Assembly (NCBI RefSeq): GCF_027921745.1
Contig: NC_079238.1
Span: 4,030,001 to 4,094,000 of the forward strand
Reading direction: 5' to 3'
Length of the DNA stretch: 64,000 nucleotides
Origin: Schizosaccharomyces osmophilus
Taxonomy: Eukaryota > Ascomycota > Schizosaccharomycetes > Schizosaccharomycetales > Schizosaccharomycetaceae
The notes under the pieces are model-generated. The model was not told where the DNA came from, did no database searches, and was given only the letters and a program-made list of their open reading frames with translations. Made by a program: the position numbers and the translations under genes. Each line of letters opens with the position of its first letter. Position 1 is the stretch's first letter. Shown here piece after piece: positions 3,456 through 52,509 of this stretch.

Positions 3456-5442
3456 GTTCATCAGCATCATCAAAGTCCTCATCGTCTTCGTCAGCTCCAG
3501 CTCCAGCTCCTTCGGAGTAAAGCTTTTGAGTAACAGGATGAACGACTTGATCAACCTTTTGACGTTGATCATCAAGTTCTTCCTTAGATGCCTCAGCACC
3601 TTCGACTTCAAGCCATTCGATAACATCCTCTACGGCGTCTAAAACAGCTTGCTTGTCCTCCTCGCTAACTTTACCACCAAGTTGTTCTTTATCAGTGAAT
3701 TGAGTTTTCAAGGCGTAAACGTAGTTCTCAAGACCATTACGAGCTTCAATGCGTTCCTTCAAAATCTTGTCCTCTTCGGAATACTGCTCGGCTTCTTTAA
3801 CCATACGTTCAATGTCTTCCTCGGACAAACGGCCCTTATCATTCTTGATAACAAGTCTTTCAGGCTTGCCCTTACCAGACTTGTCAAGAGCGGAAACGGT
3901 CAATACACCGTTAGCGTCGACTTCAAAAGTAACTTCAATTTGAGGAACACCACGAGGGGCGGGAGGAATGCCACGCAAGTCGAATTTACCAAGTAGGTTG
4001 TTGTCCTTGGTCAAAGTACGTTCACCTTCAAATACTTGAATCAAAACGGTGTTTTGATTGTCACTGGCGGTAGAGAAAACTTGAGACTTACGAGTAGGAA
4101 TGGGTGAGTTACGGCGAATAAGGTGAGTCATGACACCACCGGTAGTTTCAATACCCAAAGTCAAGGGGATGACATCCAATAGTACAATGTTATCACTTCC
4201 TTCTTCACCAGACAGAACACCAGCTTGAACAGCGGCACCATAAGCCACAGCCTCATCGGGGTTAATACCCTTAGAAGACTTCTTACCAAAGAAGTTCTCC
4301 AAGAGTTCTTGAACCTTGGGAATACGAGTGGAACCACCGACAAGTACAATGTCATCAACTTGTGCTTTCTTGAGTCCAGAATCCTTCAAAACTTGCTCAA
4401 CAGGCTTCAAAGTTCTCTTGAAAAGGTCCATGTTCAATTCTTCAAACTTGGCACGAGACAAAGTTTCAGAAAAGTCCTTACCATCGTGGAAAGAATCGAT
4501 TTCAATACGGGCGGACTTTTGTGAAGACAAAGTACGCTTAGCCTTTTCAACTTCACGCTTAAGCTTACCGATGGACTTGGCATCCTTGGTAACGTCGACA
4601 TTGTTCTTACGGTTATACAAACGGGCCAAGTAGTTGATGATCTTGTTGTCGAAGTCTTCACCACCAAGATGAGTGTCACCAGATGTGGCCAAAACTTCAA
4701 ACACACCATTGTCAATGGACAAGAGAGAAACATCAAAAGTACCACCACCCAAATCATAAACGATAATATGCTTTTCGCTGTCAGTCTTATCCAAGCCGTA
4801 AGCAATAGCTGCGGCAGTGGGTTCGTTGACGATACGAATAACATTAAGACCAGCGATAGTACCAGCGTCCTTGGTGGCTTGACGTTGAGCGTCGTTGAAG
4901 TAAGCGGGAACGGTGACAACAGCGTGGGTGACGGGTTGTCCAAGGTAAGTTTCAGCAGTTTGCTTCATCTTACCAAGAATCATGGCAGAAATTTCTTCGG
5001 GTGTGAATTCCTTTGTCTTACCACCGTAGGCAACTTCAACGAGAGGACGGTTCTTCTGGTTGACAATTTTGAAAGGAAGAGACTTGATATCTCTAGTCAT
5101 AGTCTTTTCGTCAAACTTACGGCCAATAAGACGCTTAATGTCGAAAATGGTGTTTTCGGGATTGGCAGGAGCCTGGTTCTTAGCTGCCTCACCAACCAAA
5201 CGTTCTTCGTCGGTGAAACCAACATAAGAAGGAGTGATACGGCTACCTTGGTCATTGGCGATGATTTCAACACGACCATTCTTCATAACAGCCACACAGG
5301 AGTATGTAGTACCAAGATCAATACCGATGACAGTTCCATAGTTTTCAGTTTCGTTTTTCTCCGAATTGGCGAAAACTGAGGGCAAAAGAACAAACAAAGC
5401 TACAAAGTAGCTGAAAATGCTGAAAAGTTGAAACTTCCTCAT
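3451..5442 (-). CDS. bip1: ER lumenal Hsp70 chaperone BiP
   Basis: A complete intronless 663-residue BiP/Kar2, the ATP-driven Hsp70 of the ER lumen. It assists folding and translocation and binds unfolded-protein sensors. A hydrophobic signal peptide (about residues 1-25, ending VFA) precedes the nucleotide-binding domain. Visible Hsp70 signatures are IDLGTTYS (41-48), [14 protein letters not shown] and [12 protein letters not shown]. The [11 protein letters not shown] loop, the [20 protein letters not shown] linker (here [16 protein letters not shown]) and the substrate-binding domain follow. The C-terminus is acidic and ends ADEL, the ER-retrieval tetrapeptide I also recall for S. pombe BiP, rather than HDEL/KDEL. 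The strong bias toward preferred codons suggests high expression. In S. pombe, Ire1 cuts the bip1 3' UTR and stabilises the mRNA; the long 3' flank here is compatible with that but does not prove it. Confidence 0.98.
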
Positions 5443-17365: not shown

Positions 17366-17607
17366 TTACGAGTTGGTTATGTATAGAATGAATGCCTTTT
17401 CTACCTTCGATCATTTCCAAATATTTACATCTCTATCGAAGTCGAGATTGCACATACACAATTAAAACATTCTCATGCTACTCTCATTTGGCGAATGTTT
17501 GTTTACACAATAGTGAACTCTGCAACACTACGGTCAAGAACCTCTCTCTAGGTAACCATCTTGTCGAGCATTTTCGCAAGTAGGTAATGGACTACGTAGC
17601 TAAAAAG

Positions 17608-17615
17608 CAGTCACG
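17608..17615 (+). promoter_or_regulatory. HomolD box of the snoRNA host gene
   Basis: CAGTCACG matches the HomolD consensus CAGTCAC(A/G), the TATA-replacing element of fission yeast ribosomal-protein and related genes. About 30 bp downstream is a pyrimidine tract (CTTACTCTCTTTCC, 17641-17654) that looks like a 5'-TOP-type start region. Confidence 0.55.
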
Positions 17616-17730
17616 TAAACAATAAAAGTACGCTGACGCGCTTACTCTCTTTCCAAGCATGTACATTAGTTACTATTGTTTTTTTTAAAGCTTTAGTTCA
17701 TAGTTGGTAAGTACACAATAATACTTAAGG

Positions 17731-17820
17731 ATATAAAGTGATGACAAAACGACATATACAACAGAATAACTTATGTTGAATTTTGTTGTATTTTTTTAAG
17801 TTTCAGCCTTGTCTGATTAG
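17731..17820 (+). ncRNA. Intronic box C/D snoRNA candidate targeting 18S rRNA (snR41-like guide)
   Basis: Box C GTGATGA lies at 17738-17744 and box D CTGA at 17813-17816. Directly upstream of box D, TTTAAGTTTCAGCCTTG (17795-17811) is a perfect 17-nt antisense match to the universally conserved 18S segment CAAGGCTGAAACTTAAA. By the box-D+5 rule it would direct 2'-O-methylation of the first G of AAGG. I recall this site as Gm1126 in S. cerevisiae, guided by snR41. An outer stem, AATACT (17720-17725) with AGTATT (17819-17824), brings the ends together. It lies wholly within intron 17707-17865. No clear C'/D' pair was seen. Confidence 0.85.
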
Positions 17821-17934
17821 TATTCTCTCCTTTTAATCTTTTTTTTGCGAAGCTAACTCTTTTAGAAATGATTATTTATCCAAACTTAAGCCAGTTTACT
17901 TTACTTTTGTAGTATGATGTGTAAGTTTTTTTCT

Positions 17935-18076
17935 CCAACGGTTTGCGTTTATAGGATGAGTTCCAAAGACATAACGGGCGGACTAAATTGGTCACATACC
18001 AAGTCTTCAACTGTACATTGAAGTCGTGATCGCTTTGTTGATTTCGAGTCTTACTGATTTGTCGCAATCCTGTTGG
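17935..18076 (+). ncRNA. Unclassified structured RNA in the second host-gene intron
   Basis: Ends 142 nt apart form a long terminal helix. CCAAC (17935-17939) pairs with GTTGG (18072-18076), GG with CC, and TTGCG (17943-17947) with CGCAA (18063-18067). Just inside is AGGATGA (17953-17959), one mismatch from box C, and CTGA (18054-18057), a perfect box D, so a large C/D RNA is the leading guess. An internal hairpin CTTCAA/TTGAAG lies at 18005-18022. I could not match the segment upstream of box D to an rRNA or snRNA target, so an H/ACA or novel class remains open. Confidence 0.5.
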
Positions 18077-18173
18077 ATTTTATTTCATTCTATGATATGT
18101 TACTAACATCTCTTAGATTTTTGTATTGTAGATTTTGACGTTTCCAGTAAATTGAAGCTCTAAAATGTGACAT

Positions 18174-18240
18174 GTTGCGGTGATGAGCAATTCACACTGT
18201 CTGAAACTGCCCATGATTTCTTTAATATACTCTGAGCAAC
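18174..18240 (+). ncRNA. Box C/D snoRNA candidate with 25S and 18S guides
   Basis: A compact 67-nt RNA. The closing stem is GTTGC (18174-18178) with GCAAC (18236-18240), box C GTGATGA is at 18180-18186, D' CTGA at 18201-18204 and D CTGA at 18232-18235. The D' guide ATTCACACTG (18190-18199) is complementary to CAGTGTGAAT of 25S rRNA. The D guide CTTTAATATAC (18220-18230) is complementary to GTATATTAAAG of 18S rRNA. Both targets are conserved rRNA segments quoted from memory. The 25S site lies in the region methylated with snR66/snR78 guides in budding yeast. Whether it is intronic or exonic in the host transcript is unclear. Confidence 0.82.
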
Positions 18241-18260
18241 TCTTGTCATATTTTTAGTTG

Positions 18261-18895
18261 TTTGTACAGGAAATTGTTCGTAATAGTATAGACGATTGTC
18301 GCTAAAAAATGCTGTGAAATAATTACAAATATTAACCTATCTTTGTTCCTGTAAAATGCAATTTTTCAAGTCTGTTGTAGTACATGTAGGTTTTCATCGC
18401 TTGATTATAAATGGGGAAATCATTTTGTTAGACTAGTCAAAGAATGCTATACAAATTTCCATTGTAACTACGTCTTTTGCAAGTAGATTGTACTCTCAAG
18501 ACTTTATTCTTACTTTGGATACGATGGTTTCATTTCACCCACGTTTTTGGTAATTCAGTCTCTATCGAAATCCAGAGTTTTTGTTCTTGAATAAAAAATT
18601 ATGTTTTCGGAATTCTACAGGATGCTAACCTAAACAAATAAAACATTGTCTTCTTCCAACGCTTAGAGGATTTCAAATTACAAGCTATTCACGGTTACTA
18701 GTGCAGTGTTAAATTAAAATTCCATCCAGATTTCATTTAATATAAATATGAATGTATGTTCCTAAACCACATATACAATTAATTAATAGACACAACAGTT
18801 TTCTAAATTCCAAAATAAGCTTTTACATTTATTGCCTTTTCGTAGGCTTAGCTTTTTTCGTTACAAACGCGTGAACACCTTTCGTGAAATGAAAG
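18261..18895. other. Region between snoRNA locus and sulfite reductase gene
   Basis: About 630 bases. A 7-bp inverted repeat, ACAGGAA (18265-18271) with TTCCTGT (18345-18351), could close another small RNA of about 87 nt, but no box motifs support it. The rest is AT-rich 3' flank of the minus-strand sulfite reductase gene. Confidence 0.35.
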
Positions 18896-37565: not shown

Positions 37566-40500
37566 TTACCCTTCAACGAACTTCATAGCTTCATCCTTGG
37601 AAATTGTTTCGACTGTTGATACCTTATGATTGAACATAACACCATAAAACGTATCAGCAGCTTTCACCATTTCAGGTCGAAATGTTGTGCATATGAATTG
37701 GCTTGTTCTGGACATTCCCTTTACCATTGCCGCCAAAGCAGACCGATATTGAGCATCTAAATTTGCATCACATTCGTCGAGAATGTTAAAAGGGGCAGGA
37801 TCACATCGCTGAATCGCAAAAATTAAAGCTAAAGCACATAATGATTTTTGACCTCCACTAAGCTGATGAATGCTTAACTGCTCATCATCCTTACTATTAA
37901 AGGATACACGGATACCAACACCTGTGTAATTATCAATTGAACTTCTCTGAGCTGCTTGGCTGTCAATGTCCATTGAGTTTTCTTGTTCAAGGCTCTGACT
38001 AAGTTCGCTTCGTTTGCTCATAACTAATTCACCTCGTCCAGCAGGAACAAGCTTTTCAAATATTTCCGAGAAATTCTTTGCTACCTGTTTGAAAGTGCGT
38101 TCTATAGCTTCATCTTTACGCTGATCCAACACCATTGTAAGCTCATTAATGGAATCTTGAGACCTTCTTAATTCTTCTCTTCTGGAAATCAAAGAATCAC
38201 GCTGCTTTGTAAAGTTGTTGTATTGCTCGTATGCCTTCTTATTAACGCTTCCATATTCTTTCAAAGCGTCATTGATCTTGTGCAATTTTTTGACTATAGC
38301 GTTTGAACTAGTTGAAACGTATTTAACGAAAGCTTCTTCGGGCAAAACACCAAGGGACTTAATATTTTCGTTACATTCCTTCTTACGAGCAAGCAACAGA
38401 CTTCTTTTGGCAGCATTTCTTTCGCTGACTTTCGATTCGTGTTCAATTTTTGCTGCTGCCTCATGCTGTAATTCTTCGAGTGTTTCTTGTCCCTTCTCCT
38501 TGGTTTGTAAATCATCAGCAAGCTTTTGAATTTGACTATCAAGTTTTTGGGATGCATCTTCAAGTTTATGAAGTTTTGCCTCGTGTTTCTCAATGGTTTT
38601 CTTGATGTTGGAAAGTTCGGATTCATCGACAATATTATCCATACCGAGTTGCATCTTTAGAGGATCACGTCTCAAATAAAGATTCGTATTTAACTGATAT
38701 TCCAGATTAACCTTTTGAGATTCGATTTCGACCAACTTTGCATTCAAATCGTTATAGTCAACTGACAATTGTTCGATTTGTGTTTCCAAATGTTTAAGTC
38801 TTTTCGCATCTCTGGGATCCATCTCCACCATTTCTGATTGAAGTTCTTCTTCAAAGTCTTTCACTTGTTGTTCCGAAGTTTGGAGTTCTAGTTTGGCCAA
38901 ATGCAAATCTTGAACCTTTCTACGATGAGAGCCTTGAACCTCTACTTCTTCCTGTGTTATAGAGACTTGCTCCATATTTAGCGGAGCATGATCACGCTCT
39001 AACTGTTTAAGCTCAAGCTCTGCATTCTGCAACTCATTTAAGCAATTTGTTATTTGCTGATCGACAGAATCGATTTGAATAGCAAGTTTATCGAGATTCA
39101 TTTGAGTTTCAGTAAATCGTTTCTGGTACTTTTTAACATTCTTGAGGGCATCTAAACGAGAATTCTTGTAATCACGATAACCACCAGTTAAGGCACCCTT
39201 CTTGTCAGAACGGTCACCGCTTAAAGTAATACCGTTGAGTTGATGTGATCTAGCATATTGTGATGCAACCTCGATAGAAGGGCATACAATAGTTTTAGAG
39301 AAAACTTGTTGAAATGCAGGTTGATATTTCGTATCATATTCAAGAAAATTCAGCAAAGGTAATGCATCACTGGCGTCAGGATAACCTACTGGCTTTGGAT
39401 GAAGCCTGTTTAAGGGCATAAACGTGACTCTTCCAGCATTCTCTTTATACATTACCTGTAAAATTTGATCGGCCGTCAAGTCGGAATCTACGACGACATG
39501 AAACAAACTATTTCCAGCAGTCGCTTCCACTGCGGTTTTAAACCGATTATCAACAGTGAAAAGGTCGCACAAGGGACCATAACAGCCGGTAAGTTTTAAG
39601 CGTTCTGAAATGCATTTAACAGATTTTAAGCCATTACTTGTGTTTCTATCCATGGTGGTACTCATGTTCTTTTCAGATTGTGAAAGATCATCCTTGATAC
39701 TTTCACTCATGGATTTTAGCTTAGCCTCTTCTCTCCAAAGTTCTTTTCGTTTATCAATAAGGTTCTCTTTCTTTTCATTGATTGAAGAAACCTTAGCCAT
39801 TGCTCCAGCAGTAAGTTCACCTCTAGACGAAAGTGCTGAATGAATTTCTTGTTTACGAGCGGCTTTCGCATTTAATGTCTCAGAAAGATTCTCTATTTCG
39901 GTATTTAAGTCTAGAATCCGTTTATTCTGAATTTTAATGCTTGAAGAAATCTCTTTAATTTGATCTTTAATCCAAACGTCACGCTCTTCTCTGGTAGCAA
40001 ATTGGGATATTCTTGATTGTTTGTCTAGAATGGTTCTTCTCTGATTTTGTAAAGACAGTATCTGCTGATTTAAGAGATCAACTTGGGAAACGACATCATT
40101 ATACTGAGGAATAATGTTTGTCAATTCCGATTCTTTACCATGGACTTCAGATTCCAAGGACTGAAGCATTTCGACTTTTGACGTTTCATCCTCTTTGGAA
40201 AATTCAATCTGACGTAGCAATTGTTGGAGTTGCAAATCCACAGCTGCCTTAGACTTGATAAGATTCGTGTAATCTTCTTCGTTTTGTTGCTTTTCAAGAC
40301 GAAGTAAGTTGACAGAATTCCGTAGTTCAGTAATTTCACCCTTAACCTGTTCAATACGCGTCTCCCTCTCAATAAAAGCCCCAGAATCTAACTCATTTCT
40401 TTGAAGTGTACTTGTGCGGTCTTGTTCTAGGGCATCCAAGACGGTATTGATTTCATCATGTTCACGTGAATAAATTGCATATTCCAAACACCTTCGTTCA

Positions 40501-41195
40501 TTATCTTTCTTATGATAAGCAGCAAGTTCATTTTTTTCTTCCTCAAGTTCACGCAGTCTTTCTTCAATATACTCCAATAATTCATCAATTTTCTCAGACT
40601 TGAGCACCGTTTCTGACATAATCTTGTTGGATTCGGAGCGTCTATTTTCGTAAATTTGAGTCCCTGCAACTTCCTTTAGGAGTTCCAAACGCTCAGAATC
40701 TTTCGCATTTGTAAGAGACGTTACTCGGCCTTGGGGGACAATATAATATGGGTTTGAACGTGAAAATCCTGCAGACTCTAAAAGATTTATTACTTCGCTT
40801 TTGTTCACCGTTTTCCTATCCAAAGAGTATTCATCTTTCTTAAGACCAATGGTTCGACGTAAAACAACTTCACTTTTTCCTGTAGGAAAGCGATTATCTG
40901 AGTTTTCAAAAGTAACTTCAACATAGGCACTCATAACAGTTGAACCAGGACCCTCATGCAAGAGGGCTTGCCTTTCTTCGCGTGATAAATGGGTGTAATC
41001 ATCGCCTAGAACAAAGCGAATAGCAGCAAAAAAGTTACTTTTCCCTGAACCATTCCTTCCAACAATCACATTGTGATGAGGACTAATCGGCTCTATAACG
41101 GTATAATCTTTGTAAGACTTGAATCCTTGAATAATAAGCTTAAAATTCGTTAGTTACAATCAATCCGTTTCAAAACTAACCTTTTTAATATGCAT
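37566..41195 (-). CDS. psm3: Cohesin SMC subunit Psm3 (Smc3)
   Basis: A five-codon first exon (41195-41181: MHIKK), an intron with a GTTAGT donor and TAACTAACG branch, then exon 41138-37566, giving 1195 residues (S. pombe Psm3 is about 1194). The Walker A GRNGSGKS is at 32-39 and [24 protein letters not shown] follows. The acetylatable KKD region is at the Smc3 position ([10 protein letters not shown]). Coiled coils flank a hinge near 520-670 ([15 protein letters not shown]...). The C-terminal head has [18 protein letters not shown] and DECDANLD. It forms the cohesin ring with Psm1 and Rad21 for sister-chromatid cohesion. MluI-type boxes lie just upstream (listed separately). Confidence 0.97.
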
Positions 41196-51217: not shown

Positions 51218-51270
51218 AGGGTAGGGTAGTGGAGAAATGGATAACGGGCAGTCACGAAAATGTATAAATA
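51218..51270 (+). promoter_or_regulatory. HomolE + HomolD + TATA promoter of the RNase MRP RNA gene
   Basis: AGGGTAGGGT (HomolE, reverse orientation) is at 51218-51227, CAGTCACG (HomolD) at 51249-51256 and TATAAATA at 51263-51270, just before the MRP RNA. HomolE/HomolD pairs are typical of fission yeast ribosomal-protein genes, so ribosome-biogenesis co-regulation is inferred. Confidence 0.75.
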
Positions 51271-51278
51271 ATTGCAGG

Positions 51279-51706
51279 GTATCCATGGGCTAACCTATGC
51301 AAAGACACCTTTGAGCTTGAACGATCGTTGTTGAAGCAATCTAACGAAACTTAAGTTTCTTTCGCAGCTTTAGGGAAAGTCCCCGGACTCTTTCGTCCTG
51401 GTTTCGAAATGATCCAGGATAAGCGGAAACGCGCTGACCTAAAGAACCAGCGGTTACAATAGTGGGCTTACCTCGTGGCAGGCGTTGTCTTTATTTTCTC
51501 GTAGCCTTTTTATATGCGTTTTGTTTCCGGAACGGAGTAGACAAGGATACAAGTCTATGGAGCGTGTATAAGGAAGTGTTTGGGAAATATAAAGGTATAT
51601 GCTTTGCGAGGTTTGCCTTTCCATTGAACTGTGTTTATTCGTCGTAGGCGATAGTTATACGATCACATCTACTAATCGATGTAACTCAATGGGGCTTAGT
51701 CATGGG
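51279..51706 (+). ncRNA. mrp1: RNase MRP RNA
   Basis: A roughly 425-nt RNA (ends approximate) of the endoribonuclease that cuts pre-rRNA at the A3-type site. The conserved core AGGGAAAGTCCCCGGAC at 51372-51388 matches, from memory, human RMRP RNA over GGGAAAGTCCCCGGAC. A CR-V-like TAGTTATACGATCA begins at 51652. The ends pair as P1: CCATG (51283-51287) with CATGG (51701-51705), and CTAA (51290-51293) with TTAG (51696-51699). The 3' GGGGCTTAG also recalls the GGGGCTCA of RMRP. No protein is encoded. RNase P RNA was considered, but GAAAGTCCCC is MRP-like. The length fits the ~400-nt S. pombe MRP RNA. Confidence 0.85.
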
Positions 51707-52509
51707 CTCAGAGGTTTTTTTGCCAATCTTTTTTTTTTGTGAAAGGTTTGAGTGGTTTCTCTTGTTTGAGAGAGCTTGTTCGATTCAAGCCAAACCTACA
51801 TTAAAAGCCACGCTTATAGAAAGATTGAATCCAAAATATGATGATCAAAAAATACAAGAGTCAAGCACTGATGTGCAAAAAGCACTGTGTTGAGTTATTC
51901 GGTCTGATTTTGGTAAAACTTCTCTGTTCTTAGCGCTTCCTAGTAATAGTGTGTATAGATGAATGGTATTTGTTTATTTACTTAAGATTCTTTTGTTCCG
52001 TACGGGACATCAGAAGGGGTTCTAGCGAAGTTGTAAAGTGTTAAACTTTTTATAGTAGTTTGACTTATTGTTTTTATGGTACTGAGAAGCGTTTTGAAAT
52101 TATGAATTGCTGGTTTACATGGTCTGTTTACAGTGTTTGCGTTCGTGGGGGTCAGCTGTGCATTGTTTGTTGACTTTCCTGGAGAGACACCACTAAAAGG
52201 TTCTTGATGTTTATGGAATTCCAGCAGTCGCATCTCTTCCTTTATCAATTTGCTCACTTTAAGTCTGATTTTTTTGTTTTCGTTTTTGTTTTTGCCTTGT
52301 AATATTTTCAAATTTTTGCTCTTCAAAGTATACACAGTTAGAATCAGGCTTAAAGCTTAAATGCCCTCCTTATCACACAGATTTTGTATGTGATTTTCCT
52401 TATTCTTGTGCATTGTCCCACTTTTCCGAGACTTCGTGCTATTTTTTCTGGGTTCTAAAGACTCTTCTTTTCAAGTCTTGTGCAATTTGTTTTGACGGGG
52501 ATTCGAGAA
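51707..52509. other. Spacer between MRP RNA and UPF0300-like gene
   Basis: About 800 bases. T-runs at 51715-51741 follow the MRP RNA. On the minus strand an 82-codon ATG frame (52230-51982, from MRLLEFHKHQEP to the ending DVPYGTKES) is preceded by a CTAAC...AG pair near 52332-52352, so it could be a terminal exon. No family was recognised and no upstream exon was found. Confidence 0.35.

Follow-up and report, generated by a model that had tools for sequence, protein, structure and literature searches.

Does the plus strand around 17600-18300 of the Schizosaccharomyces osmophilus DNA analysed here (64,000 nucleotides of contig NC_079238.1, below called the window) hold a spliced, non-coding snoRNA host gene with a ribosomal-protein-type promoter, and if so, which snoRNAs does it encode and how would they be released? 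In animals, hosts such as UHG and GAS5 carry one snoRNA per intron between non-coding spliced exons, and an earlier note on this DNA had proposed a fission-yeast counterpart of these. Its coordinates for the HomolD box, both introns and the C/D RNA at 18174-18240 were all correct on re-check, and the locus does look spliced and is apparently non-coding. As a novelty the proposal does not stand, since intronic hosts of the same cluster have been published across fungi. It was right in kind and mostly known, given the published cluster III hosts and the published occurrence of HomolD at snoRNA promoters; the locus is real but largely ordinary, the host-gene idea being already established. What the earlier note missed were the identities of the three RNAs and the fact that an arrangement of intronic plus exonic snoRNAs is of a described kind.

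The locus carries guides for three rRNA positions, 18S-G1126, 18S-C1639 and 25S-U2729, arranged as snR41-snR70-snR51, and all three RNAs combine C/D boxes with a guide placed according to the D/D'+5 rule. In this order and in its intronic, non-coding form, the locus matches the fungal "snoRNA gene cluster III". In all likelihood it is the host gene of that cluster in S. osmophilus, including the promoter, splicing and processing scheme proposed below. Three snoRNAs and their rRNA sites are thereby named at a locus that Rfam leaves empty at gathering thresholds, at which the whole window gives only two matches, RNase MRP and a tRNA. A literature search, covering the openly available main text of papers, found no published account of this very locus.

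Promoter, introns and coding potential

The HomolD box of the earlier note is present as an exact octamer (CAGTCACG, 17608-17615, plus strand) that agrees with the definition CAGTCACA/G, and is the candidate core promoter of the locus. The octamer count in the window is within chance, though, with four observed against 2.79 expected and at least four in 32 of 100 shuffles; what favours the box is solely where it lies and on which strand. There is no second HomolD in the locus. Nor was a HomolE found upstream of the host gene, the sole exact HomolE of the window being situated at 51218-51227; this element is present in only some ribosomal-protein genes. In the ribosomal-protein genes of S. pombe, HomolD usually lies 39-52 bp upstream of the start (PMC10253590), a spacing from which the start of the host transcript is predicted at about 17647-17667. 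This region is in or just past a pyrimidine run (CTCTCTTTCC, 17645-17654, plus strand), i.e. the pyrimidine tract that had been pointed out before, which as sequence is indeed there. Promoters of several snoRNAs, including that of U3, have already been described as containing HomolD (preprint PMC12458480), and the present locus would add one more HomolD gene whose RNAs serve ribosome production.

Each of the two canonical introns claimed earlier has a donor, a branch point and an acceptor. Intron 1 (17707-17865, plus strand) is delimited by a GTAAGT donor and a TTTTAG acceptor, with CTAAC at 17853, and intron 2 (17921-18116, plus strand) by a GTAAGT donor and a CTTAG acceptor, with CTAAC at 18103. 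The distance from the D box to the branch point is 40 nt in the former and 49 nt in the latter. As a raw count, strict matches to GTAWGT-CTAAC-YAG number seven on the plus and six on the minus strand of the 64-kb window, some of them within neighbouring genes. The names of the neighbours of the locus we take to be rad31, sir1 and ryh1. Between the introns lies the non-coding exon 2 (17866-17920, plus strand, 55 nt), while exon 3 was taken as 18117-18300 (plus strand, with an assumed 3' end) and has complementary flanks around the exonic snoRNA. No canonical splice donor is found at 18117-18172, between the start of exon 3 and this snoRNA.

The splice product was modelled as 17640-17706 joined to 17866-17920 and 18117-18400, both termini being assumed. 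Its longest ORFs are 24, 17 and 15 aa, the first of which lies inside the exonic snoRNA, and unspliced ATG ORFs overlapping 17600-18300 reach at most 35 aa, bearing out the claim that the locus has no protein-coding exons. With one RNA per intron and predicted spliced exons that lack coding potential, the locus resembles UHG/GAS5, from which it differs in its HomolD-type candidate core promoter and in having one exonic snoRNA.

Identity of the three snoRNAs

Support for snoRNA identity declines from intron 1 over exon 3 to intron 2. The snR41-type C/D snoRNA of intron 1 (core from C to D box 17738-17816, plus strand) has perfect boxes, C reading GTGATGA (17738) and D reading CTGA (17813), and a terminal stem of 3 bp. 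The 18 bases adjoining the D box form a duplex with yeast 18S 1122-1139 that includes one G-U and puts D+5 at G1126. As a guide control, an anchored pairing test was applied to the 451 CTGA tetramers of the window, on both strands and with two gaps each, i.e. 902 checks. This 18-bp guide came out at the top of the 451 tetramers, with the next box at 12 bp, and the intron 1 C/D snoRNA is far beyond chance. In yeast, 18S-Gm1126 is a site of snR41 (PMC5199042). The S. pombe homologues given in an N. crassa table are snR41-I, for 18S-Am538, and snR41-II, for 18S-Gm1122, both in N. crassa numbering (PMC2780460), and the intron 1 RNA corresponds to S. pombe snR41-II.

When 17600-18300 was searched permissively against Rfam, 16 matches came up, none of which reached gathering. 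The strongest were Afu_455 (44.1 bits, E 6.6e-6, gathering 48) and snR41 (33.5 bits, E 6.1e-4, gathering 50), both to the intron 1 RNA. The covariance search suggested in the earlier note, performed here as an Rfam search of the locus, yielded a sub-gathering snR41-type match in intron 1 and nothing up to E 10 in intron 2. Between the C and D boxes of the intron 1 RNA, at 17765-17790, an internal hairpin (TACAACA...TGTTGTA) is predicted in place of a second guide.

The exonic RNA (18174-18240, plus strand) had been claimed as a C/D snoRNA, and the claim holds: its C box is at 18180, D' at 18201 and D at 18232, with C and D perfect, and its ends form a 5-bp terminal stem (GTTGC/GCAAC). Terminal stems of at least 5 bp occur in two of the 17 C-to-D pairs of the window, namely in this RNA and in one at 51838. 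The guide ATTCACACTG (18190-18199), one base before D', has a single copy in the window on either strand and complements fungal 28S CAGTGTGAAT, with D'+5 falling on the U in CAGUGUG. In the LSU rDNA of record L006, the U of CAGU is found 86 nt before what is presumably G2815, fitting U2729. L006 is one of six bacterial genome records (L001-L006) with eukaryotic rDNA stretches, recognised by a conserved 18S pattern and most likely due to contamination; the rDNA of L004 we take to be that of Saccharomyces cerevisiae, from its appearance. Two scans of viral contigs for rRNA motifs gave no matches. The fungal 28S sequence CAGTGTGAAT is known from a printed primer (PMC8527467), and 25S-Um2729 is the site of yeast snR51 (PMC5199042), making the exonic RNA a snR51-type snoRNA by its D' guide.

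Of the 16 matches listed for 17600-18300, none carries the name snR51 or SNORD41, and such families may not be among those searched. Yeast snR51 also has an Am100 guide; the exonic RNA has none (no match of at least 9 bp), and on its own this RNA folds like shuffles (z 0.10). A guide before its D box (11 bp to 18S 597-607, D+5 at U600) was considered as an extra target and rejected because the 902 checks gave four guides of 11 bp, itself included, and another box with 12. A snR47-like identity was likewise dropped, A619 being outside 18S 597-607.

The intron 2 RNA (core 17953-18057, plus strand) is of the snR70 type. Its D box (CTGA) is at 18054, and its C box (AGGATGA at 17953) and D'-like box (CTAA at 17983) are degenerate, with one mismatch each. 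The guide ACGGGCGG (17974-17981), one base before CTAA, complements 18S 1636-1643, and provided that CTAA is D', D'+5 is C1639. The latter position corresponds to 18S-Cm1639, the yeast snR70 site (PMC5199042). By composition, 0.0004 copies of ACGGGCGG are expected in intron 2; the whole window has two copies, the other being at 4507. The permissive Rfam search gave no match in intron 2 up to E 10, the predicted folding of the RNA does not stand out from that of shuffles (z -0.85, 37 of 200), and a distant stem is all that its predicted fold offers as terminal stem. The snR70 identity is thus drawn from the guide and from the position between the two other snoRNAs. Of the earlier statement that each intron encloses one structured RNA, the C/D snoRNA of intron 1 and a guide-bearing RNA in intron 2 remain, while the latter's structure finds no support in the fold.

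Relation to published clusters

Cluster III was surveyed in 2013 (PMC3596301), in species including S. pombe, S. japonicus, S. octosporus and S. cryophilus. According to the text of that survey, most members of the three clusters have individual introns in Schizosaccharomyces, fungal hosts of such clusters are poorly conserved and without long ORFs, and cluster III is an unspliced transcript in S. cerevisiae and its close relatives. Compared with this text, the S. osmophilus locus agrees in the three rRNA sites and their order, in having intronic snoRNAs and in a host without long ORFs, whereas its last member is exonic. Fungal hosts have also been likened to UHG in a study of N. crassa, whose cluster III (CD9, CD17 and CD6) includes an exonic snR51-type snoRNA, CD6 (PMC2780460). 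There, too, an intronic 18S-Gm1122 guide and an exonic snR51-type guide share one UHG-like host, but the other intronic member, CD17, is of the U45 type, while the middle RNA of S. osmophilus is of the snR70 type. How common intronic snoRNAs are in fission yeast is a point on which two published statements disagree: "most box C/D genes are intron-encoded" (PMC2780460) versus 81% of all snoRNAs being non-intronic (PMC12508059).

A polycistronic-mixed case described in fission yeast is mamRNA-snR107-snoU14 of S. pombe, in which Pac1 cuts a hairpin spanning the exon junction (PMC12508059, PMC11971394). The present locus shares with it a spliced-looking non-coding precursor, in which an intronic snoRNA precedes one in the adjacent exon, and differs in its snoRNAs, its two introns and the lack of a cross-junction hairpin. 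That the locus could be mamRNA itself was rejected, as the exonic RNA has a snR51-type guide and no recognisable U14-type guide, judged by the features that we take to mark the latter. With the present locus, fission yeast has another gene, besides mamRNA, on which mixed intronic and exonic snoRNA processing can be tested.

Proposed processing and alternative explanations

In the proposed scheme, RNA polymerase II would start from the HomolD core promoter and the transcript would be spliced twice, after which debranching and trimming of each excised intron would leave one box C/D snoRNA. Through the pairings described above, these two would guide 18S-Gm1126 and 18S-Cm1639. The 25S-Um2729 snoRNA of the last exon would be cut from the precursor; the likeliest enzyme for this is Pac1, an RNase III, with a stem of the snoRNA's own flanks as its substrate, and the spliced exons would have no coding role.

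The flanks of the exonic snoRNA, 18117-18172 and 18241-18300, pair in a duplex of -27.9 kcal/mol (z -3.75, reached by none of 300 shuffles). Whole folds with 15, 20, 30 and 40 flank bases had z-scores of -4.16, -2.63, -1.55 and -2.70, with 0, 5, 23 and 3 of 300 shuffles reaching the energy, respectively, and with full flanks the z-score was -1.52 (25 of 300). With a second folding tool, short flanks gave z -2.03 (8 of 200), as compared to 0.10 when the flanks were removed. The flank stem is hence significant as a duplex and weak in the full fold. These data suggest that the flanks may form a direct RNase III stem, a suggestion that is unproven since several flank lengths were tried.

A very improbable alternative is that the same three snoRNAs are made and the exonic one is freed as in mamRNA-snoU14, by Pac1 acting on an exon-junction hairpin, so that cleavage awaits splicing. 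The mixed layout is alike, with intronic snoRNAs followed by one in an exon, and in the spliced leader exon 1 is predicted to pair with exon 3 over a stretch on the scale of 15 bp. Against this, spliced folds (z +0.57, +1.18 and +0.37, 300 shuffles each) and exon-exon duplexes in the locus (z +0.10, -0.16 and -0.02, 300 each) were no better than shuffles; no mamRNA-like cross-junction hairpin was found among them, and a splice-junction hairpin was rejected on these grounds.

It is about equally improbable that the three RNAs are transcribed separately or, as in the unspliced cluster III of S. cerevisiae and its close relatives (PMC3596301), from one unspliced polycistron, the splice signals then being relics. 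Against this, donor, branch point and acceptor have been kept in both introns, the intron 2 RNA has no C box other than a degenerate one, and the locus has a single HomolD. The least probable alternative gives the spliced exons an independent function, as regulatory RNA or short peptide, with the snoRNAs as passengers. The second role of the mamRNA host (PMC11971394) is a precedent for it, and the longest spliced ORFs, of 24, 17 and 15 aa, speak against it.

The host gene of cluster III could be placed in a wider setting, which we regard as a tentative possibility. Beside mamRNA, it may be a second mixed cluster of fission yeast, in which RNase III would free the exonic snoRNA at a stem of its own flanks and the order of events would thus be set differently. 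HomolD, common to this host, ribosomal-protein genes and the RNase MRP RNA gene, might then provide one Rrn7-type switch for several unrelated ribosome-making RNAs.

The RNase MRP RNA region

The RNase MRP RNA gene (51310-51711, plus strand) was identified by Rfam at the gathering threshold. Upstream of it lie HomolE (AGGGTAGGGT, 51218-51227) and HomolD (CAGTCACG, 51249-51256), so that the promoter of this further ribosome-making RNA appears to be laid out like those of ribosomal-protein genes. Starting about 115 nt downstream of the RNase MRP RNA, we found an unannotated C/D snoRNA candidate (51826-51911, plus strand). It has a terminal stem of 6 bp and contains the snR66-type stretch GAGTCAAGC-A-CTGA. 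Its best Rfam match is snR66 (29.5 bits, E 0.0069), below the gathering threshold of 65. In a gene table of S. cerevisiae, NME1 and SNR66 occupy adjoining rows (PMC9731477). Given this adjacency, the linkage between RNase MRP RNA and snR66 may be old.

Elsewhere in the window, an alignment indicating a Schizosaccharomyces other than S. pombe is given by the ORF at 37566-40934: it encodes a cohesin subunit, all 1122 residues of which align, with many differences, with PDB chain 6yuf_C, presumably Psm3 of S. pombe.
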